This document shows positions 560 to 18,241 of a stretch of 64,000 nt of DNA, piece by piece. Source of the stretch: Methanococcus vannielii SB (GTDB lineage Archaea; AGJL01; Methanococci; Methanococcales; Methanococcaceae); assembly GCF_000017165.1 (NCBI RefSeq), contig NC_009634.1:1656049-1720048 (forward strand). Reading direction: 5' to 3'. The position numbers and the translations under genes are program-made. The notes under the pieces are model-generated. The model worked only from the letters and a program-made list of their open reading frames with translations, was not told the DNA's origin and did no database searches. Each line of letters opens with the position of its first letter. Positions within the stretch are counted from its first letter, which is position 1.

Positions 560-3148
560 TCACTTTAAAGCGGGATTTTTATAATAATATGTATTTTCAA
601 TAAATAGATTAATTTTTTCAATAGAAATCTCGTCAAGTTGAGTAAATGCTCTTAGTTTCGGGATTCTAGTTATTTTTTCATATAGTTTCGGGCCTTCTCC
701 AGACGGCAGGTGTGAAGCTATTTCTTTTATTAGTAATTCACTGAGTCCACTAATTAAAAATCCACATTCGGGCTCATTTAACTCAGATATTATTTTTGAA
801 ATTTGGAGGAAATTACCGTGATGTATATTTAATATTTCATGTTTGATATTGTCATACTTGATTTCTTTGAATTTTTGATATGTATTAAATGGGGCAATGG
901 ACGCTAGATACTGTTCAACAAGTAAACTATATTTTTCAAGTATGTTTTTGTTAATATCATGCAAATATTTTGCATTTTGATTAATATATGGGTCAGATTT
1001 ATCATCTATGCCTGTTAATATCGTTAAATGTTCTGGAGGAGTAATTTCACGAAGGTTGAGTTCAGCATATACATTTTTCATGTCTTTTTTTAACAATGTT
1101 AACGTTGCACCAATATTGACTCCCGAAAGATCCTTTACATTTTTCATACAGTCCAAAATGAGGTCATGGTCAATATTTTCCAATATAAAAAGCATCTGTT
1201 CTTTGTTAATTCCCGAAAGAATGGCTTCAATCGTCTCAAAATGTTTAACCTCATCAAAAGTATAGAGTTCATTGATAATTTCTACCAATTTGTTATTTTC
1301 AAGATATTCAAAATCTAAATTTATTAATTCGTCAGGGGAATAAACATCAGTTAACCGATCATTTTTATTTTTAGATCTTCTAATTATTTCGTCAATAACC
1401 AGATATGAATCATTACTTTTTTTCAAAGAATTTATTAAAATATGAGTATTCATTATGAGGTCATCGCTAGTTGGTGAAAATAAGTCATGTAATCCCCTAA
1501 CGATTTGTCCTGAAATATACTTTTTTGAATAGTGTTTTACATGTTCTAATGAATAAATAAGCCCATTTGCAATTATTGTTCTATTTTTCGGAGGTACTCG
1601 ATATAGTGAGTTGCCGTTATTTTGTAATTTTAGGATATACCGTTCTAGACGATCACTTTTTGATAATTTGTGCAAAAAACCTTCAAAATCTTTTTCAGTG
1701 AGTCCTTGTTTTTTATATAATTCTAATTCATACGTCTGAAATTCATGTTCTGATTTACAATACATAAAATAATTGTTGAATGAGTTTTCCCCGTAAATCC
1801 TGTTTTCAGGGTTTCCGTCACGTGTATCAAGTATTGCAAATTCTTTAATTGCAGAATTAGGAAATAAAACGGTTAATAATTGATAAACATCATCTGCATC
1901 GATCGAACGGTAATTTTTCAAGTATTCGTTGATTTTATTTTTGTAATATTTATGATCGTATCCCGAACCACCTAATACGCACGTTCCATCAAATACAGAA
2001 TAACCTACAAAAAGTTCTTTATTATGTTTTACCCAATCGTAAATTTCGGGCGTAAAAACTTGCAAAGCAGTTAAAACAATTAAATCTATTTTATTAACTT
2101 GATTTTTTAGAAGATTCCAATTAAAATTAAAAATAGAGATATATCTATTCACATCTCGAATATTTTTGATCATGTTGCTAAAGCACAAGGGATAAAATTC
2201 AAAGTATTGGGGTATATCTCGAGGATTTTCTCCAATTATATTTTTTATTTCTTCTTCCAAAATGTTTTCTAAATCTAATGTATGGGGTTCAGGCATTTTT
2301 ATTGGAAATTGTATAATTTTTTCAAGATAGTGCATCCCATATCCATTTTGATGATTTTCTAAAGCATTAGATACAATTTTTTCATCAAATGATAGGACGT
2401 AAGTTATATTTTTAAAATCAGCAAGGCATTTTACAAGATGGAGTATTTGACCGATTTCTCTGTCATTCAGTCTATCCATGTCATCCATAATAACCAAGAT
2501 TCTGAATGGCAAGTTTTCGAATTTTTTGTCTAATTTCTTTTTTACGGTTACGATGTCGGTAGGTTGTCTGTATCCCTTCAATATTACGGATAAACATTTA
2601 GTGATTATTTTTCCAATTGTGACCGTAATTGTAAGGATTGGATTCAGTGTAATGAATTCAGGACTCATTTTTTCTAAATATTTATCAATACTAGATACCA
2701 ATCCCCACATAACCCCAAAAATTTTTCCAATCCAATCTTTTATATTTTCTAATATGGATTGACGTGTTTTCAATGATTCCGAAAGACATTTAAAGAAATT
2801 TAATATTAAATCATCAGTTTCCGTAAAATACCACGGATTAAATTTTATAGTAAGCATATTACATTTTTCAATTCTTTTGAGTTTTATAAATCTTTTAATT
2901 CGGTTTTGTTTAGAATTTTTGCATTCATTAATTTTTTCTTTAAAATCATTTTCTAGAATTTCCAAAGATTTATCAATCGAAAAGGATTTCCCTGAACCCC
3001 ATGATCCATAAAGTCCAACAACAAATCCATTTTTTTCATTATCTTGCCAGTTCATTATTTCTGCAAGACTTTTATGAAATCCTTCTCTTTCAAGAAGGTC
3101 TTTTTTTTCAGGATTGTTTATCTCCATTAAAATATTGTTATTTCCCAA
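560..3148 (-). CDS. KAP family P-loop NTPase
   Basis: 862 residues. Walker A is GSWGSGKS at residues 48-55. A Walker B-like ILVIMDDMDRL lies near residue 220. Between them are moderately hydrophobic segments (about 135-190), the place where KAP NTPases carry inserted membrane helices. KAP proteins are STAND-like signalling or defence ATPases; the phage-exclusion protein PifA belongs to the family. The remaining 500 residues are alpha-helical and unrecognised. The start is TTG 3148, preceded by a run of eight G five bases upstream. It follows the MCM-N gene by 27 bp, so the two are probably co-transcribed. Function in defence is inferred from family and neighbours. Confidence 0.85.
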   Translation of the reverse strand: MGNNNILMEINNPEKKDLLEREGFHKSLAEIMNWQDNEKNGFVVGLYGSWGSGKSFSIDKSLEILENDFKEKINECKNSKQNRIKRFIKLKRIEKCNMLTIKFNPWYFTETDDLILNFFKCLSESLKTRQSILENIKDWIGKIFGVMWGLVSSIDKYLEKMSPEFITLNPILTITVTIGKIITKCLSVILKGYRQPTDIVTVKKKLDKKFENLPFRILVIMDDMDRLNDREIGQILHLVKCLADFKNITYVLSFDEKIVSNALENHQNGYGMHYLEKIIQFPIKMPEPHTLDLENILEEEIKNIIGENPRDIPQYFEFYPLCFSNMIKNIRDVNRYISIFNFNWNLLKNQVNKIDLIVLTALQVFTPEIYDWVKHNKELFVGYSVFDGTCVLGGSGYDHKYYKNKINEYLKNYRSIDADDVYQLLTVLFPNSAIKEFAILDTRDGNPENRIYGENSFNNYFMYCKSEHEFQTYELELYKKQGLTEKDFEGFLHKLSKSDRLERYILKLQNNGNSLYRVPPKNRTIIANGLIYSLEHVKHYSKKYISGQIVRGLHDLFSPTSDDLIMNTHILINSLKKSNDSYLVIDEIIRRSKNKNDRLTDVYSPDELINLDFEYLENNKLVEIINELYTFDEVKHFETIEAILSGINKEQMLFILENIDHDLILDCMKNVKDLSGVNIGATLTLLKKDMKNVYAELNLREITPPEHLTILTGIDDKSDPYINQNAKYLHDINKNILEKYSLLVEQYLASIAPFNTYQKFKEIKYDNIKHEILNIHHGNFLQISKIISELNEPECGFLISGLSELLIKEIASHLPSGEGPKLYEKITRIPKLRAFTQLDEISIEKINLFIENTYYYKNPALK

Positions 3149-3175
3149 AATTCCCCCCCCTCTTTATGTAAGTCT

Positions 3176-3916
3176 TTATTTTTCATCTTCAATTTTTTCT
3201 GCATATATTCCTTTGATTATGATATCAAATACGCCAGTTTTTTTATTCGGTCTTAAATACGGGATCCCAATGATTCGGAAAATTCCGTTATATATCCCAG
3301 GTGAATTTTTTAATATTATTTCTTGTTCTATATTCGAAGTACTTTTTGATAAAAACTCTTTATTAATTGATATTAAGGTTAATTCTTGAAAATCTTCGTA
3401 TTTAGATTCACTCTGCATAAGAAACATTTTTTGACTACATTTTGGACAAGTTCTTTCCAAACTGGTTTCAAAAGGATTTTCAATTTTAAATATGGCCGAG
3501 TTTCCACAAGTTGTACATGTCAATGCTAAATTTGTAATTCCAGAAACAATTTTCTTTGTACTTTTAATTTTTCCGTCAATTTCAATTAATTTTCCAACAT
3601 GGCAGGTATTAATTTCGTGAATCTCTATTTTGGATAGTAATTCTTTAGGAATATTTTTTATACTGGCCGTTATATTTATTCTTTCACAGTTATAGTCCCA
3701 AAATGCTTCATTGTAACATTTTTCAAGTAGGCAAATCCCTTCATCAGGGTAATTTATAATATATTCTAAAATGGCATTACCTAACGGAGATTTATGGAAT
3801 AAATCGTTTAAATCCATAGTAACTATGTTTTTTTCTTTTGTTAAGTTTTCAAAATGAAATTCTTTTAAATAACTGATAATTTCCGGTTCAAAATTTAAAG
3901 TTTGACTATTCCGCAC
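3176..3916 (-). CDS. Stand-alone MCM N-terminal domain protein (OB fold with zinc finger)
   Basis: 246 residues resembling the N-terminal half of archaeal MCM replicative helicases. There is a helical part (1-100), an OB-fold strand VGKLIEIDGKI (107-117), a zinc finger with C134, C137, C157 and C160, the MCM-like YEDFQELTLI (173-182), and a final stretch matching the end of MCM-N (PGIYNGIFRIIGI, then FDIIIKGIYAEKIE). It stops where the AAA+ ATPase domain would begin, so it cannot unwind DNA itself. In MCM this domain binds DNA and drives ring assembly. The start is GTG 3916 after GGTGA. It is the first gene of a two-gene unit with the KAP NTPase. A TATA-like sequence at about 3951-3960 suggests its own promoter. 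Confidence 0.75.
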   Translation of the reverse strand: MRNSQTLNFEPEIISYLKEFHFENLTKEKNIVTMDLNDLFHKSPLGNAILEYIINYPDEGICLLEKCYNEAFWDYNCERINITASIKNIPKELLSKIEIHEINTCHVGKLIEIDGKIKSTKKIVSGITNLALTCTTCGNSAIFKIENPFETSLERTCPKCSQKMFLMQSESKYEDFQELTLISINKEFLSKSTSNIEQEIILKNSPGIYNGIFRIIGIPYLRPNKKTGVFDIIIKGIYAEKIEDEK

Positions 3917-4045
3917 ATTCTCACCATAAAAATAATAGTTAAAATAGTGGCGATTTATATATTAATTATTATCTAAATTTAAAAAAGAGTAATTTCAATA
4001 AAAAATATTTTAAAATAGTTTATTTTGGGGTAGTTAAATGGTATT

Positions 4046-4990
4046 TTAATCAATATATCCCAACGCTACAAGATTTAATAATAAATTTTCAACTTCTTCT
4101 CCACTATTTAATTGGATAAACGTATATTGGTAATATGGATAAGGTTCCGAGTTTGGGTACAATTCCCTACAAAATTCAATTCCTGATGGCATTTTTATAT
4201 TGTATTTTTTAATATCTTCATGACTGTATAATATATCTATAAATTCATTAATTCGAATACTTTCTTCCTTATAAATTGCGGTTTTTAAAACCCATTTTCC
4301 AGCACTATCCTTAAAATATATCTTTTTCAGCTTTAGTGCCTCTATCATCCATTTTAATCGATTATCTTTAATAAATTTTAAATAATTTTTGTATTTGGTC
4401 TGATCCGGTTTTTTCGGCATTTTTTCTATTTTTGAGTCGATTATATCTTTTAATTTTTCAAAATATTTGTTTTCTAAATTTTTAAATTCCTCACGGTACG
4501 AAAACATTTTTGCCATGTCCCGGGAGTAATCGCTCCATTTTGGTGTTACGACTGATTCAGCCGTTTCATTTTTAATAATTTTTGCAATTTTTAACATGTC
4601 CCTATGATACAGGTCTAGTGATTTTGAAGTGTTTCCTAGTGTTCCAATTCCATTTTTTGCTAAAAAGTATAAAATATACCATTTAGAAATTTTAGCGGAG
4701 TTATCGAGTATTTTTTTCAAATTTAATTCAATATCTTCAAGAGTTTTCCAGGGGCCCGTTATATCTTGAACGACGTCAAAAATTTTAAGTCTTTTTTCAA
4801 AAAATGTTTCATCATCAAAAAAATAATAATATAATTTATTCATTAAATAATTAAATTCCTCAGCATCCTTATTTCTGCCATTATTAACAGATTCCTTGTA
4901 ATGTATTTCCCAATAAGATTTTGGGGTCCAAATATCATTTAGGTCTGTTTTTTTAATTTCTTCAAGGTACTTAAGATATTTTTTCTCCAA
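4046..4990 (-). CDS. Unknown helical protein in defence-like island
   Basis: 314 residues, rich in lysine, aspartate and aromatic residues, predicted mostly alpha-helical, without membrane segments or a signal peptide. No family is recognised. The start is taken at TTG 4990 because a very strong GGGGGAGG site lies five bases upstream; a longer frame back to ATG 5029 lacks one. It lies 129 bp upstream of the MCM-N gene on the same strand, so it may belong to the same system or be a separate cargo gene. Confidence 0.6.
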   Translation of the reverse strand: MEKKYLKYLEEIKKTDLNDIWTPKSYWEIHYKESVNNGRNKDAEEFNYLMNKLYYYFFDDETFFEKRLKIFDVVQDITGPWKTLEDIELNLKKILDNSAKISKWYILYFLAKNGIGTLGNTSKSLDLYHRDMLKIAKIIKNETAESVVTPKWSDYSRDMAKMFSYREEFKNLENKYFEKLKDIIDSKIEKMPKKPDQTKYKNYLKFIKDNRLKWMIEALKLKKIYFKDSAGKWVLKTAIYKEESIRINEFIDILYSHEDIKKYNIKMPSGIEFCRELYPNSEPYPYYQYTFIQLNSGEEVENLLLNLVALGYID

Positions 4991-5257
4991 ATTATCCTCC
5001 CCCACACTATCCGCTAATAAAATGAACATTGTATATTAATAAAACTTATTTTTGGTGCATTTAATATTATTGGTTAAGTTACAACATAACCGGACTAACA
5101 AAAAGAAATCATTACTTAAAAATATATATTGTAGAGTAAATAGTTCAAAGACTGACAAAAATATGCCGAATACCGCAGGGGTGGAATTATTCTATTCAAA
5201 GTAAAAAAGAATACTGATCTAGAATATGCAATTAAAAAAGCATTTTATGCGAAAGAT

Positions 5258-5824: not shown

Positions 5825-7111
5825 TCATTTTAAATGTTTATTTCTAAATTCTTCATAAATTATGGGCCTTATTTTTCTAAATTCGTCTAAATTTTGCCTG
5901 TTTTCAATATCCCAATTTCCGGCAGTAATATATCTTAACCATTCCGGAGTACTGGCTTTAACTTTTCTTACTCTTAAATCGTATTCAAAAGGTTCAAAGA
6001 GTTTAATTTTTGAATCAGAAGGATCAACTATCCAAACTTTTAAATTTTCATTTCTAACCATCGCATTATACAATCGGATATTAACATGTTCATCGCAGAA
6101 GCTGTATCCTACAACTATTATTTCGTCTAAATTATCTAATATCTGGTCGATCAAAGCTAATTTTTCTTCGCCCGGTTTTGGATTTACTGTTTTACTAAAT
6201 TTATGACCGCCCATTTTAATTGAATTTCTTAAAAACTGGATTTCCCCGTCCATACCACTTACAGATAATTCATTAAGGGTATTTATTTTCAATCCATTAA
6301 AAAAATATTTCATTTCAGTTTTCTTGGATACTATTTTAAGGTAATCAAGGGCAGTATCTGAATTTTTAATGTCCAACTGAATTATAGTTTTACCCTCTTC
6401 AATATTATCAAAATCTCCATAAGAAAATTCGTTAATTGCACCATGTAATTTGATAAGATTTACCCCTTTACCACTTTTTATAAAGTTCATGTTTTCTAAA
6501 CTTAAATCTTTACGGTCAACTGATCCAAATTCGAGTGTATTTTCAAAGTTTAAATTTGAAATTGGAAATTTTACTTTTGAAACAGACCCAAAACTAAGGG
6601 GGATCTTATTATCAATACACAAAAATTCAATTATGAGGTCATGATTTAATGATATAACCCATAATGGATCTTCACCAATAAACTTGCTAAAATCTTTGTA
6701 AAAATGCTTGTTTAGATGGTAAATTGGAAAATAGTGTATATGGTAAGCATAAAATAGATATGAAATAATGTCTAAAATCTTTCCACGTGTATATTCACAA
6801 GTAAGCCGGTATTCTTTAGAAATGTCATGTGAACGGATTATATCTTCAATGTCTTTTAAAAATTCTTCGTAATTTAATGAATTGTTACATTTATGTTTTT
6901 TAAATAGTTCTGCAATGTCAAATAGTGCTTTTGAATCAGTTGGATTATCTTCGCCGTAAGGCTCATGTTTAGACCATGAATTAATATGATCTTTTAAACG
7001 AGTATTGTTATAAAAAAAGAAAAAATCTTTTGATACGTCATTAGCAAGGGGTATTCCTAAATCATATGAAAAACCCGCCCCTATCAACAATCCTTTTCGA
7101 ATTTTAACCAC
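5825..7111 (-). CDS. SIR2-like domain protein, putative NAD-consuming defence effector
   Basis: 428 residues with the SIR2 superfamily signature: GAGFS at residues 11-15, SLNHDLIIE in the middle, LIKLHG, and the late GYSFCDEHVN motif. Stand-alone SIR2-like domains of this type occur in anti-phage systems (for example ThsA, DSR, SIR2-HerA), where they hydrolyse NAD+ on infection. No ThsB, Argonaute or HerA partner is adjacent, so this may be a single-gene system or act with the unknown neighbours. The start is assigned to GTG 7111, which overlaps the GGGTGG site; an ATT codon sits at the normal distance. Activity is inferred from family. Confidence 0.75.
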   Translation of the reverse strand: MVKIRKGLLIGAGFSYDLGIPLANDVSKDFFFFYNNTRLKDHINSWSKHEPYGEDNPTDSKALFDIAELFKKHKCNNSLNYEEFLKDIEDIIRSHDISKEYRLTCEYTRGKILDIISYLFYAYHIHYFPIYHLNKHFYKDFSKFIGEDPLWVISLNHDLIIEFLCIDNKIPLSFGSVSKVKFPISNLNFENTLEFGSVDRKDLSLENMNFIKSGKGVNLIKLHGAINEFSYGDFDNIEEGKTIIQLDIKNSDTALDYLKIVSKKTEMKYFFNGLKINTLNELSVSGMDGEIQFLRNSIKMGGHKFSKTVNPKPGEEKLALIDQILDNLDEIIVVGYSFCDEHVNIRLYNAMVRNENLKVWIVDPSDSKIKLFEPFEYDLRVRKVKASTPEWLRYITAGNWDIENRQNLDEFRKIRPIIYEEFRNKHLK

Positions 7112-7177: not shown

Positions 7178-7579
7178 TTAAGCAACTGCACTTGTCGCTT
7201 GAATGTTAAATGATTCATTTGAGAGTCCGTATTCATTAAGTGTTTTTGCGTTTATTGATTTTTCAAAGTGTTTGTTTCTTTTTAAAACGTCTAAAATTAT
7301 GTTTATCTGAACAGTTTCCTTATAAACTTCTATAAGTCCGCTAGTTCCAACAATATTACTTAAATCAAATTTATTTAATCCAAAAGTTTCCGAAGCATCA
7401 ATTATTTCAACGCCAGTAATTAATTTTTCCCCTGTTTTAGTTATTCCCATGTCTAAATAGATGTTATCTACTTCAATTGTGTGGTCGTATTCTGCTTCAA
7501 TATTTTTTCTTTTAATATACATTGCATCAGCTAGAGGATCATAGTCTAAAGTTACATCCTTACCTTCGAATTTACTCAT
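7178..7579 (-). CDS. DUF2283 protein, putative antitoxin
   Basis: 133 residues. The N-terminus has the DUF2283 pattern YDPLADAMYIKR, followed by a TGVEIIDAS motif. The start is ATG 7579, preceded by GGAGG; a longer upstream frame overlaps the toxin gene heavily. It overlaps the end of the DUF4258 gene by 8 bp, an arrangement typical of toxin-antitoxin pairs, and DUF2283 genes are commonly found beside DUF4258 genes. A paralogue lies at 17555-17932. The C-terminal extension beyond the usual short DUF2283 domain is unrecognised. Confidence 0.7.
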   Translation of the reverse strand: MSKFEGKDVTLDYDPLADAMYIKRKNIEAEYDHTIEVDNIYLDMGITKTGEKLITGVEIIDASETFGLNKFDLSNIVGTSGLIEVYKETVQINIILDVLKRNKHFEKSINAKTLNEYGLSNESFNIQATSAVA

Positions 7580-7868
7580 GTTTTGTCCTCCGTTTAGTTT
7601 CTTGGGGAATTGGCGAAATAAAGTAGAATTTGTTAAATCTGTATGAAATAACAAGTATAATGTCTTTTTTTAAATCGTACTCGTAGTATAATTTAAATGT
7701 ATCAAAATTTTGATTAATTATTCCTTTACACTTTTTAGTTTTAAGTATATTATAAAGTTCATCGAATTTAAAATTTCTTTCTTTTAACCTTTGAACAAAG
7801 TGATCAGTTAGTTCATAGTTGTTTTCAGAAAGTGTTTTTAAAATTTCTAAAAATTCTTCAATTTCCAT
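7572..7868 (-). CDS. DUF4258-like protein, putative toxin
   Basis: 98 residues with ELTDHFVQRLKERNF near the N-terminus and a strand-rich C-terminal half (LYYEYDLKKDIILVISYRF), the plan of the small DUF4258/BrnT-like nuclease-type toxins. The His and Arg of the HFVQR motif are candidate functional residues. It is the first gene of a two-gene unit with the DUF2283 gene. Toxicity is inferred from family and arrangement only. Confidence 0.6.
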   Translation of the reverse strand: MEIEEFLEILKTLSENNYELTDHFVQRLKERNFKFDELYNILKTKKCKGIINQNFDTFKLYYEYDLKKDIILVISYRFNKFYFISPIPQETKRRTKHE

Positions 7869-8167
7869 TTTTTCACGAATAATTAGTACTTATCTATCAT
7901 ATTATTTTTTTAGTATATTAAAATAGTTGTTTTTATTTTAAAAATGTTTTTTGAACTATTTTTAACTTTTTAATTAATTTAACCTTTCAAAACACAAATC
8001 CTGTAAGGTATGACTAAAATTTAACTCGTCCTCGTGCATTTCCTTCGTTATTTTTAGTAAATGGCATAAACTTTTAAATCGGTTTTTTTAACTAAGTTAT
8101 TTTAAGTTAATATGGCTTAAAATAAGCTTATTTTTATTAAATTTTAATGTGGGGTCATATTTCCGGT

Positions 8168-8220
8168 CTGCTAATCCCGTTACGCTCTGCGTAACCCGAG
8201 TTCAAATCTCGGTCTCCGCG
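8168..8220 (+). pseudogene. 3' fragment of a serine tRNA gene (GCU anticodon loop to discriminator), integrase attachment remnant
   Basis: The fragment begins at the anticodon loop CTGCTAA (8168-8174). It continues with a long class II variable arm GTTACGC-TCT-GCGTAAC (8179-8195), a perfect T arm CCGAG-TTCAAAT-CTCGG (8196-8212), the 3' acceptor strand TCTCCGC and discriminator G (8220), then a T-rich stretch. The 5' half is absent: bases before 8168 do not pair with the anticodon stem or acceptor. This is what a tyrosine recombinase leaves when it inserts into the 3' half of a tRNA gene. No intact copy is in the window. Confidence 0.85.
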
Positions 8221-8460
8221 TTTTCTTTTTTGAGTAATAAATTAAGTTAGAAAACTTAACTTTTATCAAAATTTTTTCGGTTTAACGACGGGACTAAATA
8301 CTGTCTTTATTTTAGTCCTATGTATTTTTGAAATACAGTATTAGTTTTTGAAAAAATTAAAGTATTTTTTTAAAATATTCACGTTTGTAAATACTGGTTT
8401 TTAAAACTCGTGAGGTTTTCAGACTTTTTATTCCAAAGGAATATTTTGGTAGGCCCGTAA

Positions 8461-8570
8461 TAATACAATCAAAACATAGTAATAATATTTGTAACCAAGA
8501 TGTAACCAGAATGTTTAAAATACGTTAAATCACGTATAAAAAATAGGCAAAATACGACAGTCAAATTTGA
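8461..8570. repeat. Left copy of a diverged ~100-bp direct repeat
   Basis: The region matches 18013-18120 in the same orientation; the core 8517-8566 agrees with 18072-18121 at 46 of 50 positions. The core contains the inverted repeat TACGT-6-ACGTA (8521-8536). It also contains GTAACC twice, linking it to the repeats that follow. The two copies bracket the integrase and helicase genes and may be element ends, origin copies or recombination-protein sites. Confidence 0.7.
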
Positions 8571-8691
8571 TAACTGACTTTATGAATACCGCTAATATAA
8601 ACACAGCTAAATAAAATACCAATATTAAATGCGTATTTTTCATAATTTTTTTACAAATTTTTTTCTTTTACTCACGCTTACTGATTTTTTT

Positions 8692-9116: not shown

Positions 9117-11315
9117 TTATTCTAATTTTTCCTGGATTGGTCTTTCAATTAGTTTATACAGGTACTCTTTTGGTTTTACAACAATCTTTCCAACCATGTT
9201 TTCAAGTAATTCGAGAGATTTTTCTTTAGGTATTCCATGTGCGAGTTCTAATTTTAATGTAATTTCTGCTTCATGAACATGATCTTTTTCTTCCTGGAAT
9301 TCCTTCATCGTATCAACAATGATTTCACTTATGATCTGGTCATCGGGATGTTCAGTAAATTCTTCAGTTATTGGAATCCAAACTGCTTTTTGTGGTTTCT
9401 TTGTTCCAAGAACCCTTGTTGCTTTAACTTCAAAACCATGCGCGTTAAATTCAGAAAGCGTTTTTATTCCCGTATCGCCAAGTTCAATAAAATTCAATCC
9501 TTTTGCAGTTAAAACAATGTGATAATTCTCAATTTTATCTTTTTTAATGTAAATTCCGTATTTTTCAAGCTGCTTTACTCCAACAAAATAATTGGCTCCT
9601 TCTGGCTCTGCAATGTAGTCTAAAATGTTGTATTTGATACCTGATTCAACCCATTCAGATAATTTTAAAACTTCTTTAATGACTGATTTCTTAACTGAGT
9701 CTTTTGAAGTGTAGATATTGCTGTTTCCATAAACTATCGTTTTTGATGGTTCATATTCAAGTTCAAACTCTTTAAAGATAAATTTTGCAATCTCTCGTCC
9801 AATCATTATGACGTTATCGTTTGCATTTTCCCTTGAAGAATCAAATTCCAATGTATCAACATGTTCTTTGATTTTTTCAATATTTTTGTAGATATACGCC
9901 CCTAAAAGTGGCATTTTATCTAATAATTTGTTTCCAATCTGTTCATTATTAACTAAATCATAATCATAAGCACTTAAAACAATAAACCTGTCAACGAGTG
10001 CAGGATCAAACTCTCTAAACTGGTTTGTTGATATAATAAATGGCCTTCTTAAAAGGAAGTTATAGTCTTCTTTTTCGGTTTCCTTATTTCCCCTTGTAAT
10101 TATTGCTTCGTCTTTTGTACCAATCTGTTTTAAAATATCAACAAGTCTTTCTGGAAATTCTTTTAATTCATCAAACCACATTGGCAAGTTTACATACTGC
10201 TCTTTTGCAAGTTTTGCAATACTTCCCTTTAAATCGTCATTTGAATAGGTATCTGTTGTATTTAGGAGTAATTTATTAAATACAATGTTCATTCTCGCAG
10301 TTTTTCCAATTCCCTGTTTTCCAATAATTAAAAGATATGGAAATTTGTCAAGTCTTTTTGTCTTTCCAGTTTCTTTGTTTAAGAGATCATACCTAAAGAG
10401 TGATGACAACGAATATTCAAAAATTATTTTTGTAAAGTCTTCAGCTCCAAAGTATTCTTTAAGAAGCTCTAAAGTATCTTTAATTTCATCTCGTTTGTAT
10501 TTCATTGAAAGCATTTTTTTAAAATCTCTTGCTCTCAAACTTTCTTTTTGTAATTCCCAACCGTTTAATATAATCTTATCTTTTCCGTAGTATCCATAAG
10601 CTACGGTTCGTTTGATAACTTTCTTTGTGTCATCATAACGCTTTATAATGTAGTCGTAAATCCTTCCGTATTCATTTAAAAATTTGATATAGTTGAAATT
10701 CCCTGAAGGTTTTACTGCAGTAATAAAATTATCAAAATAACTTATTTCGTCGTTTAAATCGATTTCATTATCCTTAATAATTAATTTCTTCTGGGTTTCG
10801 AATGTTCTTCCGTTAAAGTATGTAACGTTTTCAATTTTTGGTTTTGTATATGCTGCAATTGCTTTAGAATCTTTAATTCTGTCTCCTTCATCTCGAATTA
10901 AATATTCTATTGCGTAAAGATTTTTTATTTCATTAAATTCTAAATTCCTTGATTCTTCACAGATTTCTTTAAAGAGGCTTCTTTCGCTTATTTCTACAGT
11001 TCCTTCGAGTCCTTTGAATTCAACTTTCACTCCAGGTATTTTCAAAGTTTTGTAAACACGATGATAGATTGATGTAAGATCACTACCTTTTGGGAAAACT
11101 TCTAAAATATGTTCTTTTTTAAGCTCGTATTTTTCTGAAAATTCGTCCAAATCAAAGATAAATATATTATCAACGACTTTCTTTTCAGCTGCGTATTTTT
11201 CAGATAAGTCCCAAACTTTTTCTATTAATTCTATACGTTTTGCACTTTTTTCTGCTAGTTCCTTTTGGGCTTCTTTGATAAGTACATCTTTTTGCACCTG
11301 GCTTATGCTCCTCAT
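9117..11315 (-). CDS. Plasmid/virus-type replication helicase (SF3/AAA-like ATPase)
   Basis: 732 residues. The N-terminal 300 residues are helical and unrecognised. A P-loop IGKQGIGKT lies near 340, followed by Walker B-like LPMWFDELKE and a sensor-like PFIISTNQF, then a winged-helix-like C-terminal region. This order fits phage/plasmid P4- or D5-like replication ATPases. The start is ATG 11315 after GGGTGG, 9 bp past the integrase stop, so the pair forms an operon. It is probably the replication initiator or helicase of the integrated element. No primase motif was recognised with confidence. Confidence 0.7.
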   Translation of the reverse strand: MRSISQVQKDVLIKEAQKELAEKSAKRIELIEKVWDLSEKYAAEKKVVDNIFIFDLDEFSEKYELKKEHILEVFPKGSDLTSIYHRVYKTLKIPGVKVEFKGLEGTVEISERSLFKEICEESRNLEFNEIKNLYAIEYLIRDEGDRIKDSKAIAAYTKPKIENVTYFNGRTFETQKKLIIKDNEIDLNDEISYFDNFITAVKPSGNFNYIKFLNEYGRIYDYIIKRYDDTKKVIKRTVAYGYYGKDKIILNGWELQKESLRARDFKKMLSMKYKRDEIKDTLELLKEYFGAEDFTKIIFEYSLSSLFRYDLLNKETGKTKRLDKFPYLLIIGKQGIGKTARMNIVFNKLLLNTTDTYSNDDLKGSIAKLAKEQYVNLPMWFDELKEFPERLVDILKQIGTKDEAIITRGNKETEKEDYNFLLRRPFIISTNQFREFDPALVDRFIVLSAYDYDLVNNEQIGNKLLDKMPLLGAYIYKNIEKIKEHVDTLEFDSSRENANDNVIMIGREIAKFIFKEFELEYEPSKTIVYGNSNIYTSKDSVKKSVIKEVLKLSEWVESGIKYNILDYIAEPEGANYFVGVKQLEKYGIYIKKDKIENYHIVLTAKGLNFIELGDTGIKTLSEFNAHGFEVKATRVLGTKKPQKAVWIPITEEFTEHPDDQIISEIIVDTMKEFQEEKDHVHEAEITLKLELAHGIPKEKSLELLENMVGKIVVKPKEYLYKLIERPIQEKLE

Positions 11316-11324
11316 TTTCCCACC

Positions 11325-12293
11325 CTATAAAATCTTTTTAATTTGATTTAGCATTTTTTGCTGTCTTTCCTTAGAGTGGGAGTAGTATAGCGTAGTTTCA
11401 ATGGACTTGTGACCGAGGTACTCTTTTACAATATCAATTGGCATACCTTTGTCCAGGAGATCTACTGCTCGACCATGTCTTAAACTGTGGATTACTACTC
11501 TTTTGTTATCCTGAAGTTTTCCCTTTTTCTTTAATTCTTTGACCGCATTTCGAAAAACATCGCTCGGACGGTTTCTTTTTAATGGTTCGCCCCTATAGGT
11601 TTGGAATAAGTTGTCTCCAGGGTTTTTCTTAATATTTGCTTTTAAACAGTAATTTACAAAATCTAACGTGTCTTTTGAGCAGGTAACGATTCTTTCTTCT
11701 TTTCCTTTGGTGTCTCTTAATCTGAATTCCCCTTTTTCTAAATCACTGTCCCCATATTTTAGATTCAAGGCTTCAGAAACTCTTGCACCCGTATCCCATA
11801 AAAACCGGATTATCATTGCATCTCTAACTTTTGTAGTGCTTCTTGATTCTAGAACTTCCATTAAAATCAAGTTTAAAATGTCTGCGCCTAATGAATCGTA
11901 ATGCTTTATTTCAAAACTCGAAAATCTTTTCCTATCTTCACTTTCATTTTTAAAGTCGTTTAGGTTTTCGAGTCTCATTAGTTTGTAAAACACTTTTAAA
12001 ACGTCGTAGTATCTTTTTTGGGTATTTCTTGAAAGTTTCCTTTCGTTTTCAAGGTAATTGAAGAATCTGACAAAGTCCGAGTTTTCCATATCATTCGGTT
12101 CTTTTTCGAGCCGTTCGTATCCAAAATTTAAGAATACTTTTAAACGGTTGAGGTCCCCTTCGATAGTACTTTCTTTTATTCCGTCAAATTCTCGTTCTGA
12201 AACGTATTTATCAATCCATTTTTTTAATTTGGGCGTTTCTTTGATTTCTTCTTTTTTCGGATTTAATAAGATAAGATTTTTAATATTTTGCAT
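11325..12293 (-). CDS. Tyrosine recombinase (integrase, XerC/D-like)
   Basis: 322 residues with a SAM-like N-terminal core-binding region (about 20-115) and a complete catalytic domain: R171 in TGARVSEAL, H269 and R272 in HSLRHG, H295 in YLGHKS and the nucleophile Y304 in YYSHS. The start is ATG 12293 after GGGG. It should integrate and excise the element; the tRNA-Ser fragment at 8168-8220 is the likely kind of target. The gene is intact, unlike SSV-type integrases that are split on integration. Confidence 0.9.
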   Translation of the reverse strand: MQNIKNLILLNPKKEEIKETPKLKKWIDKYVSEREFDGIKESTIEGDLNRLKVFLNFGYERLEKEPNDMENSDFVRFFNYLENERKLSRNTQKRYYDVLKVFYKLMRLENLNDFKNESEDRKRFSSFEIKHYDSLGADILNLILMEVLESRSTTKVRDAMIIRFLWDTGARVSEALNLKYGDSDLEKGEFRLRDTKGKEERIVTCSKDTLDFVNYCLKANIKKNPGDNLFQTYRGEPLKRNRPSDVFRNAVKELKKKGKLQDNKRVVIHSLRHGRAVDLLDKGMPIDIVKEYLGHKSIETTLYYSHSKERQQKMLNQIKKIL

Positions 12294-15108: not shown

Positions 15109-16758
15109 TTATTCTTTCGATTGATTTTCTTTTAACTTTTTTAAAATTACTTCGAGATTTGCTATTTTTGAAATTTCAAGTTCAGATAAATCAAAATGTT
15201 TTACCGGATCAGATTTTTCTGAACTTTCTGAATTGCTGAAAAATACGCTGTCATAGGTAAATTCTATTTTTTTAGATTTTAAAATATCATTCAGTACTGA
15301 ATGAACTGCATTATCGTCTAAATTATATAATTTTAATAAATATGCCACCACAGAACTATTATCGGATAAATCAAATATTAATAAAGATAAATAAAACTTT
15401 GTGGCTTCATAAATGTTTTTCCAAGCATATGATTTATTTTTGCCATTAGAATGGTGATATACTAATTTAAACAAATAAAGCTTATGAGTATTTATTATTA
15501 AATTTAAATCACGTTTTTCAACAGTTTCTTTTAAATTTAACGTCAAGTAGTTTATTCTAGACATATATGGATTTATAAAGTAAATATGATCGTTATTTGG
15601 GATCATTAAATTATCAAAAAGAACGTATAATGTATTTGCCATTTGGCTAATTATTCTCTTTAATTGATTTGGATTTTTTAGTGAATAATTTATTATATAT
15701 TCGTAATAACTCAATACTATGAACAATAGTCCGTTTTTATTAAGGCTTTGTTTTTCATCCCTACCATCTAAATCTATTTCTAACGTGAATTTGTGAAATA
15801 GATCTATAAACTCATCCAATTCATTATCTGATAACACAAAGTTTCTATCTTGAATTTTTTTAAACATTTTGGATATTTTTTTAGATATTAACCGCATAGC
15901 CCATTTTGAATCCCCAATATCGAATCCTACATAACTTAAATTATAATATTTGTTTAAATAATACTTAAAAAATGATAAATAGGTTTTAAAATCTATTTTC
16001 TTAGCAATGTATAATTTATAAAATAAATTTTCAATTTCAGAATATTTATATTCTAATTTTGGTGAAACAGAAGTTAAATTGAAATCTTTTTTTAAAACGA
16101 GGTGGTCACACATACTGAATAGTACATTTATCGGAAAAAATGAAGTTTGATACATAAAATCGTTATTATATTTTAACACATCTTTTTCTATTTTTCTAAC
16201 GTTTATTTTGTTAACAACATACTTTGAAAATGAGTATATGTCTATACTTGAAATGGCTACCAAAATAAAACTAATTAAAAGGAAAGTAGTGAATATAAAA
16301 AGAAAAATGGGTACGAGAACTAACAATGTACCAAATGGAAATAAATAACCCCAAAAATTTATAAAAACTAAGTTAACAAGTATCTCGCCATGATTTGACA
16401 TTAAATACAATGCCAGCACATCCATTGAAAGTGCAAAAAAGTAAACTGCCAATATACTTTTAAACCTGCTATCATTTAAAAAAAGAAGTATGGAATCCAT
16501 CCCGTATTTTGAAAGAATCGTTTGAAGAAGTATGAGTATAAAAGGAATCAATATTCCCAAAAATCCTGCCTGTATTTGTGTAATTATCGCAATTAACTCA
16601 TAATAATCACCTAATGTACTTTCTGGAGTTAGTGCATACATCATTAATTTTATCGTTAAAATTGACACTATGAGCAAGTAAGAAAAACCTAAGAATGAAT
16701 AATTTTTTAAAATTAAATCCCAAAATGAATCATTAAGTTTTTTGCCAAACCCGCCCAT
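15109..16758 (-). CDS. Membrane protein with N-terminal helices and large cytoplasmic domain, unknown
   Basis: 549 residues. Four or five hydrophobic helices fall within residues 20-175, followed by about 370 residues of soluble, mostly helical sequence without known motifs. The start is ATG 16758 after GAGGGGAG. It is flanked by the repressor gene and the toxin-antitoxin pair, so it is probably element cargo. The layout of membrane sensor plus cytoplasmic domain resembles some abortive-infection proteins and DUF2254-like proteins, but no specific match can be claimed. Confidence 0.55.
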   Translation of the reverse strand: MGGFGKKLNDSFWDLILKNYSFLGFSYLLIVSILTIKLMMYALTPESTLGDYYELIAIITQIQAGFLGILIPFILILLQTILSKYGMDSILLFLNDSRFKSILAVYFFALSMDVLALYLMSNHGEILVNLVFINFWGYLFPFGTLLVLVPIFLFIFTTFLLISFILVAISSIDIYSFSKYVVNKINVRKIEKDVLKYNNDFMYQTSFFPINVLFSMCDHLVLKKDFNLTSVSPKLEYKYSEIENLFYKLYIAKKIDFKTYLSFFKYYLNKYYNLSYVGFDIGDSKWAMRLISKKISKMFKKIQDRNFVLSDNELDEFIDLFHKFTLEIDLDGRDEKQSLNKNGLLFIVLSYYEYIINYSLKNPNQLKRIISQMANTLYVLFDNLMIPNNDHIYFINPYMSRINYLTLNLKETVEKRDLNLIINTHKLYLFKLVYHHSNGKNKSYAWKNIYEATKFYLSLLIFDLSDNSSVVAYLLKLYNLDDNAVHSVLNDILKSKKIEFTYDSVFFSNSESSEKSDPVKHFDLSELEISKIANLEVILKKLKENQSKE

Positions 16759-17932: not shown

Positions 17933-18012
17933 AGTTTCGCCTGATTTTTTAGGTTTAAGTAAAATCTGTTTTGTAAAATTTATAAAGTTATGGTAAACTT
18001 TTTTCAACTCCG

Positions 18013-18120
18013 TAATAATTCAATCAAGTATGGATAATAACTATATGACTAAAATGTGACCAAGATGTTAAAAAATACGTTAAATCACGTATGAAAAATA
18101 GGTAAAATACGACAGCCAAA
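18013..18120. repeat. Right copy of the ~100-bp direct repeat
   Basis: Matches 8461-8570 in the same orientation, lacking about ten bases near its middle. The TACGT-6-ACGTA inverted repeat is conserved at 18076-18091. It marks the probable right boundary of the integrated element; core genes begin just beyond. Confidence 0.7.
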
Positions 18121-18241
18121 ATTTTGTTAAATACGGATAAAATGAATAGTATTAAATAAAATCTTTATGTTACGTGCTTGTTTTACATAAGTCTTCTATC
18201 ATTTTAATTACCTCAAGATGAAAATATTAAAAAAGAAATAA

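Follow-up and report, generated by a model that had tools for sequence, protein, structure and literature searches.

A motorless MCM N-terminal domain protein beside a KAP-family NTPase in an integrated element of Methanococcus vannielii

Main finding

Methanococcus vannielii SB encodes a real and unusual relative of the MCM helicases, a protein of 246 amino acids that consists of the MCM N-terminal domain (MCM-N) and ends before the AAA+ motor. Its gene is followed after 27 bp by one for a KAP-family P-loop NTPase, and this MCM-N/KAP pair is known from one genome. Both genes are cargo of a mobile element of about 14.6 kb integrated in a tRNA-Ser gene. Sites of the MCM-N protein that couple the domain to the motor are selectively lost, and its core is kept. 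Positions are those of the window, the 64,000 nucleotides of contig NC_009634.1 that we analyzed (1,656,049 to 1,720,048), unless stated otherwise.

An MCM N-terminal domain without its motor

The MCM-N gene (3176..3916, reverse strand) has a GTG start with a Shine-Dalgarno (SD) sequence, GGTGAG, just 5' of it. The initial annotation of this DNA had assigned its product to the N-terminal region of MCM, and the profile and sequence comparisons agree. The Pfam model MCM_OB (PF17207) matches the protein with 46.2 bits (E 4.6e-12), above the curated cut-off, and the NCBIfam MCM model does so at E 2.5e-13. The sequences of the solved Pyrococcus furiosus and M. thermautotrophicus MCM N-domains match in phmmer with E between 3e-7 and 1e-5, and a 686-aa MCM encoded elsewhere in this genome is 34% identical over residues 3-245. 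Together with the matches of the KAP protein reported below, these values exclude chance as the source of the two domain assignments. Identity to other MCMs ranges from 23% to 37%, the latter being the maximum to any relative.

The A, zinc and OB subdomains of the MCM N-terminal region are all present, and the C4 zinc site (C134, C137, C157 and C160; 3437..3517, reverse strand) is exactly as first claimed, its ligands being invariant in 40 of the 40 full-length MCMs compared. The structure prediction that the initial annotation had proposed alongside an HMM search favours the same identity. The AlphaFold2 model (pLDDT 84, pTM 0.78) has PfMCM-N as its closest PDB structure (TM 0.81, E 1.8e-17); since the input alignment was made of MCM relatives, this supports the MCM-N fold and is not independent proof of it. 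The reading frame stops no more than 1-2 residues from the entry of the N-C linker of full-length relatives, so that the gene indeed ends before the motor. The protein thus shares the three subdomains and the C4 site with the archaeal MCM helicases (the resident 686-aa MCM and the MCMs of pT26-2-type plasmids and of the virus MFTV1), but it has neither AAA+ motor nor winged helix.

We searched for the missing motor in the rest of the genome, whose 1,720,048 bp form one contig. The motor model PF00493 matches only the three other, full-length MCMs encoded there; no separate motor half exists in the genome, and a split MCM with its motor in another gene is ruled out. A frameshifted or hidden AAA+ remnant inside the element is ruled out as well, as the best tblastn match there has E 0.04. 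Readthrough or fusion from MCM-N into KAP was also rejected: although KAP starts in the frame of MCM-N, two stops in that frame lie between the genes. The low identity to the resident copy (34%) and to any relative (at most 37%) rules out a recent truncation of the resident MCM.

Selective loss at the motor-coupling sites

We compared the MCM-N protein site by site with full-length MCMs. Conserved sites were defined as those at least 90% conserved in the 18 closest full-length MCMs, and 22 long-branch full-length MCMs served as controls. In the zinc/OB region the protein has 18 of the 24 conserved sites, which equals the best controls (11-18). Within residues 177-203, where both the allosteric communication loop and the second ssDNA-contact strand lie, it has only 3 of 19, compared with 5-16 in the controls. 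The two regions of the protein differ significantly (Fisher P-value 1.7e-4), and the difference between core and loop (0.59) lies outside the range of the controls (mean 0.02, sd 0.17, maximum 0.40). The allosteric communication loop provides the coupling between N domain and motor (PMC3972481, PMC3970758), and the conserved form that it has in MCM helicases is absent here. In the degenerate loop region (residues 180-203; 3308..3379, reverse strand), Q182, Q183 and P184 of other MCMs are replaced by I, S and I, and the glutamine at position 182 is present in 40 of the 40 other MCMs. Long evolution in the absence of a motor would predict just such a loss, limited to motor-coupling sites, and uniform decay would not. 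The pattern of sites therefore argues against simple decay of MCM-N, and fits selection that may have acted on the fold and not on motor coupling over a long motorless existence.

The initial annotation had described the protein as the DNA-binding, ring-forming half of MCM. Its identity as an MCM N-domain stands, and the attribute 'DNA-binding' is doubtful because conserved basic residues are replaced. Those lost include residues common to most relatives (K124, K128, K180, R212 and K221). In our own reading of the phmmer alignment, the position of K180 is that of PfMCM R186, an ssDNA-contacting arginine whose change to alanine lowers ssDNA affinity about sixfold (PMC3970758). By the same reading, the retained Y173 aligns with PfMCM F179, which is needed for hexamers (PMC4627082). 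The GC content at first codon positions of the gene (GC1 0.325, against 0.35-0.41 in neighbouring and homologous genes) is compatible with some relaxed constraint. A stop codon could arise through 134 single substitutions; the frame is nevertheless open. In a tree of MCMs the protein sits on a long branch (2.14) and its placement is not settled.

A PifA-like KAP NTPase in the same putative operon

The neighbouring gene (560..3148, reverse strand; 862 aa, TTG start) encodes a KAP-family P-loop NTPase, as had been claimed (PF07693, E 8e-40), and PifA is its nearest model among those for defence proteins (PADLOC, E 5e-52). PifA is responsible for the exclusion of T7 by the F plasmid, and QatA and Tmn are other defence NTPases of the KAP family. 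With these the 862-aa protein shares the KAP P-loop domain, the Walker motifs (Walker A GSWGSGKS and Walker B D222-D223, from alignments) and a predicted hydrophobic insert. It differs from them in that the strong match covers the NTPase part only (residues 90-427 of 862, the best stretch being 64-396 of the 720 positions of the PifA profile), and its C-terminal half diverges. Hydropathy peaks at 1.77 at residues 171-189 and two helices are predicted with low confidence (141-161 and 172-191); the hydrophobic segments predicted near residues 161-191 would sit inside the NTPase domain. We know of no MCM-N gene partner in PifA, Qat or Tmn.

In the structure model of the KAP protein the NTPase core is well modelled and the C-terminal half is helical with low confidence. 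The best solved match in Foldseek is the defence ATPase RdrA of RADAR (E 5.8e-6), but its TM-score is only 0.28; ORC/Cdc6 and BrxC come next, and the low TM-scores of all of these indicate the ATPase class only. Unlike RADAR, the locus has no recognised RdrB deaminase gene among the neighbours of KAP. The nearest KAP relative, in another Methanococcus, is 56% identical and has the same start residue; it is not accompanied by MCM-N, and its upstream gene encodes an unrelated protein.

The two genes are separated by a junction of 27 bp (3149..3175, reverse strand) within which lie the ribosome-binding site for KAP and a G8 tract (C8 at 3153-3160). Since the junction is too short for a promoter of its own, we infer bicistronic transcription of MCM-N and KAP. 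The only promoter-like sequence that we could recognise lies ahead of MCM-N, with none ahead of KAP: a putative TATA-box-like element, ATATATAAAT (3953..3962, reverse strand), about 37 bp 5' of the MCM-N start. A scan for sigma-70 promoters remained at background level, with a model that is ill-suited to archaea. Spacing and promoter position suggest a single operon, with co-transcription of MCM-N and KAP as the likely arrangement. The run of eight G on the coding strand, in the ribosome-binding region of KAP, is a possible slippage site that could tune KAP translation.

The gene pair is cargo of an element integrated in tRNA-Ser

The left border of the element is tRNA-Ser(GCT), at contig positions 1649680-1649766, to the left of the window. 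At its right border, attR (8165..8227), 63 bp from the 3' part of this tRNA gene are repeated with 97% identity. The element thus has a tyrosine integrase and a tRNA 3' end duplicated at both borders. From the tRNA onwards it encodes a type II restriction enzyme (PADLOC, E 1.4e-71), a C5 methyltransferase, the integrase and proteins of 230, 411 and 163 aa, followed by KAP, MCM-N, an orphan 327-aa protein, a SIR2-like protein and a DUF4258/DUF2283 pair. The restriction enzyme and methyltransferase genes are convergent and lie directly inside the tRNA-Ser end (L131:9849-12108).

The orphan gene, upstream of MCM-N (4046..5029, reverse strand), had no credible match in Pfam, PADLOC or NCBIfam and no relative in 22 genomes of the family. 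The SIR2-like protein (5825..7111, reverse strand; 428 aa) is of the defence type (PADLOC Aga_SIR2/SIR2, E 2.5e-11). With the type II restriction-modification genes and KAP it makes for a defence-flavoured setting, all within one integrative element. The two small overlapping genes of the DUF4258/DUF2283 pair, identified by profile matches (7178..7868, reverse strand), look like a toxin-antitoxin-style unit. They are 89-91% identical to a pair in the element of another Methanococcus species (L187:16459-17149), and the 411-aa proteins of the same two elements are 43% identical, which points to recent exchange of the pair.

Related elements in other Methanococcus genomes can be recognised by the 411-aa protein and the integrase; in those examined, neither MCM-N nor KAP lies beside the 411-aa gene, and other genes are found there. 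Mobile elements repeatedly capture MCM genes for their own replication. Ten genomes have a full-length MCM gene at most about 3 kb from an integrase of this family. Here the methyltransferase occupies the place downstream of the integrase and MCM-N is several kb away, so that MCM-N is not an in-place remnant of the integrase-MCM arrangement. Its position outside the integrase-adjacent replicative slot, its degenerate communication loop and its lost basic residues set it apart from the archaeal MCM helicases. These helicases, like MCM-N, also occur on mobile elements integrated in tRNA-Ser: the pT26-2-type plasmids of Methanococcales integrate there and encode MCM or MCM-like Rep proteins (PMC6972569).

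A second integrated element adjoins the first one and is flanked by direct repeats of about 120 bp (81%; 8455-8573 and 18010-18130). Its integrase (11325-12293) is 65% identical to that of the first element, and it encodes an AAA-type replication protein (9117-11315). Near tRNA-Ser of another Methanococcus (L186), we found a replication protein and an integrase that are 76% and 79% identical, respectively, to those of the second element. Membrane proteins of 549 aa (15109-16758) and 552 aa (L187:12787-14445) lie beside the replication modules of both elements, here and in L187, and may represent a shared type of cargo.

The pair is known from one genome

The initial annotation had made its interpretation depend on the two genes being found together elsewhere and had proposed a survey of archaeal genomes; the pair turned up in one genome only. 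We inspected the neighbourhoods (6 kb, or to the contig end) of the best 80 of 191 KAP relatives in GTDB contigs, and none had MCM-N beside KAP. The same was true of 8 KAP loci in viral contigs, giving 0 of 88 loci from public collections, and none of 7 other strong KAP genes in genomes of the family had an MCM beside it. Overall, the searches of GTDB contigs, IMG/VR, phages and plasmids gave no second pair.

Other stand-alone MCM-N proteins were sought in collections with one genome per species. Among 36 Methanococcales genomes, the protein described here is the only short MCM whose frame does not run off its contig. The short MCM frames checked among the matches listed for 148 genomes of the Halarchaeum phylum are contig-end cuts too, and the short frames checked in these surveys (in G017, G058, G144 and G178) were rejected on this ground. 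Across about 184 archaeal genomes, the matches listed thus include no other stand-alone MCM-N. The plasmid and phage MCMs matched in our searches are all full length. Gp43 of MFTV1, a head-tailed virus of Methanococcales, is an MCM of 743 aa that has both motor and OB domains, and the plasmid pMEFER01 also encodes its own MCM. In the literature searched we found neither an MCM-N/KAP pair nor a motorless MCM, in keeping with the earlier remark that no described system of this kind was known. Taken as a whole, the initial interpretation is partly supported.

Possible functions of the gene pair

The reading that we tentatively favour, as possible rather than probable, is that of a cargo operon in which a motorless MCM-N docks on MCM rings and is co-expressed with a defence-type, PifA-like KAP NTPase that acts against MCM-driven replicons. 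MCM-N would descend from a full-length Methanococcales MCM and would have been maintained after the loss of its AAA+ motor. It would fold and assemble through its N-tier and zinc-finger faces, an assembly that may enable it to dock on, or mix into, MCM rings. It would then probably direct KAP to invading replicons driven by MCM, or block their rings, and the host or the element would be protected (superinfection exclusion). Invading replicons are the suggested target since in this order an MCM of their own serves the replication of plasmids and of at least one head-tailed virus. This reading agrees with the defence role of the KAP relatives PifA and QatA and with the restriction-modification and SIR2-like genes of the element; against it count the single instance of the pair, the persistence of KAP without MCM-N in another Methanococcus, the low GC1 and the lost basic residues. 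A more specific version, in which a motorless N-tier ring would recognise MCM helicases loaded on invader DNA and activate a membrane-linked KAP NTPase as an anti-replicon pair, seems to us quite unlikely. If it were true, a mimic of a replisome subunit would be the sensor of a defence system.

The evidence does not decisively separate the favoured reading from three others. A mobile-element MCM may have lost its motor by deletion or recombination, leaving a neutral or decaying fragment in front of an independent KAP defence gene. We regard this as somewhat doubtful. It accounts for the uniqueness of the pair, the lower GC1, the long branch and unsettled tree position of MCM-N and the solitary KAP of the other Methanococcus, and elements of this type often carry a full-length MCM next to the integrase. 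MCM-N lies outside that slot, however, and its frame has stayed open despite the 134 substitutions that would close it and ends at a domain boundary. The gene also has SD and TATA-like signals, and its product keeps the zinc site and 75% of the core sites, as many as the best long-branch functional MCMs, with loss only at motor-coupling sites. That same combination, of a kept fold and zinc face with an absent motor and coupling loop, would suit a decoy or dominant-negative subunit that mixes with or caps MCM rings, be they of competitor plasmids and viruses or of the host, and by itself makes them stall, KAP being an independent neighbour. Such competitors exist (MFTV1 and pMEFER01 encode MCM), and KAP does occur alone elsewhere; yet 23-37% identity is perhaps too low for mixed rings and the operon shared with KAP would be a coincidence, which makes this explanation unlikely.

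MCM-N could instead bring the host MCM to the origin of the element, together with the conserved 411-aa protein, KAP being either unrelated or an ORC-like loader; we consider this improbable. The element has no MCM motor of its own, and the KAP model weakly resembles ORC/Cdc6 folds, a similarity that is, however, generic to the ATPase class. Orc1/Cdc6 is absent from Methanococcales (PMC3984812), and that article cites Krupovic 2010 for the proposal that MCMs of mobile elements form mixed complexes with host MCMs. Against this role, the elements of other genomes that encode this 411-aa protein have no adjoining MCM-N or MCM.

Should the operon be inert, it would be an example of helicase relics that persist in archaeal elements. 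A captured MCM that has lost its motor and kept its fold would otherwise represent a helicase scaffold that was reused, possibly in conflict between replicons. It also lends itself to a simple test of the ability of an MCM N-tier protein to sense MCM rings, or to poison them, inside the cell.
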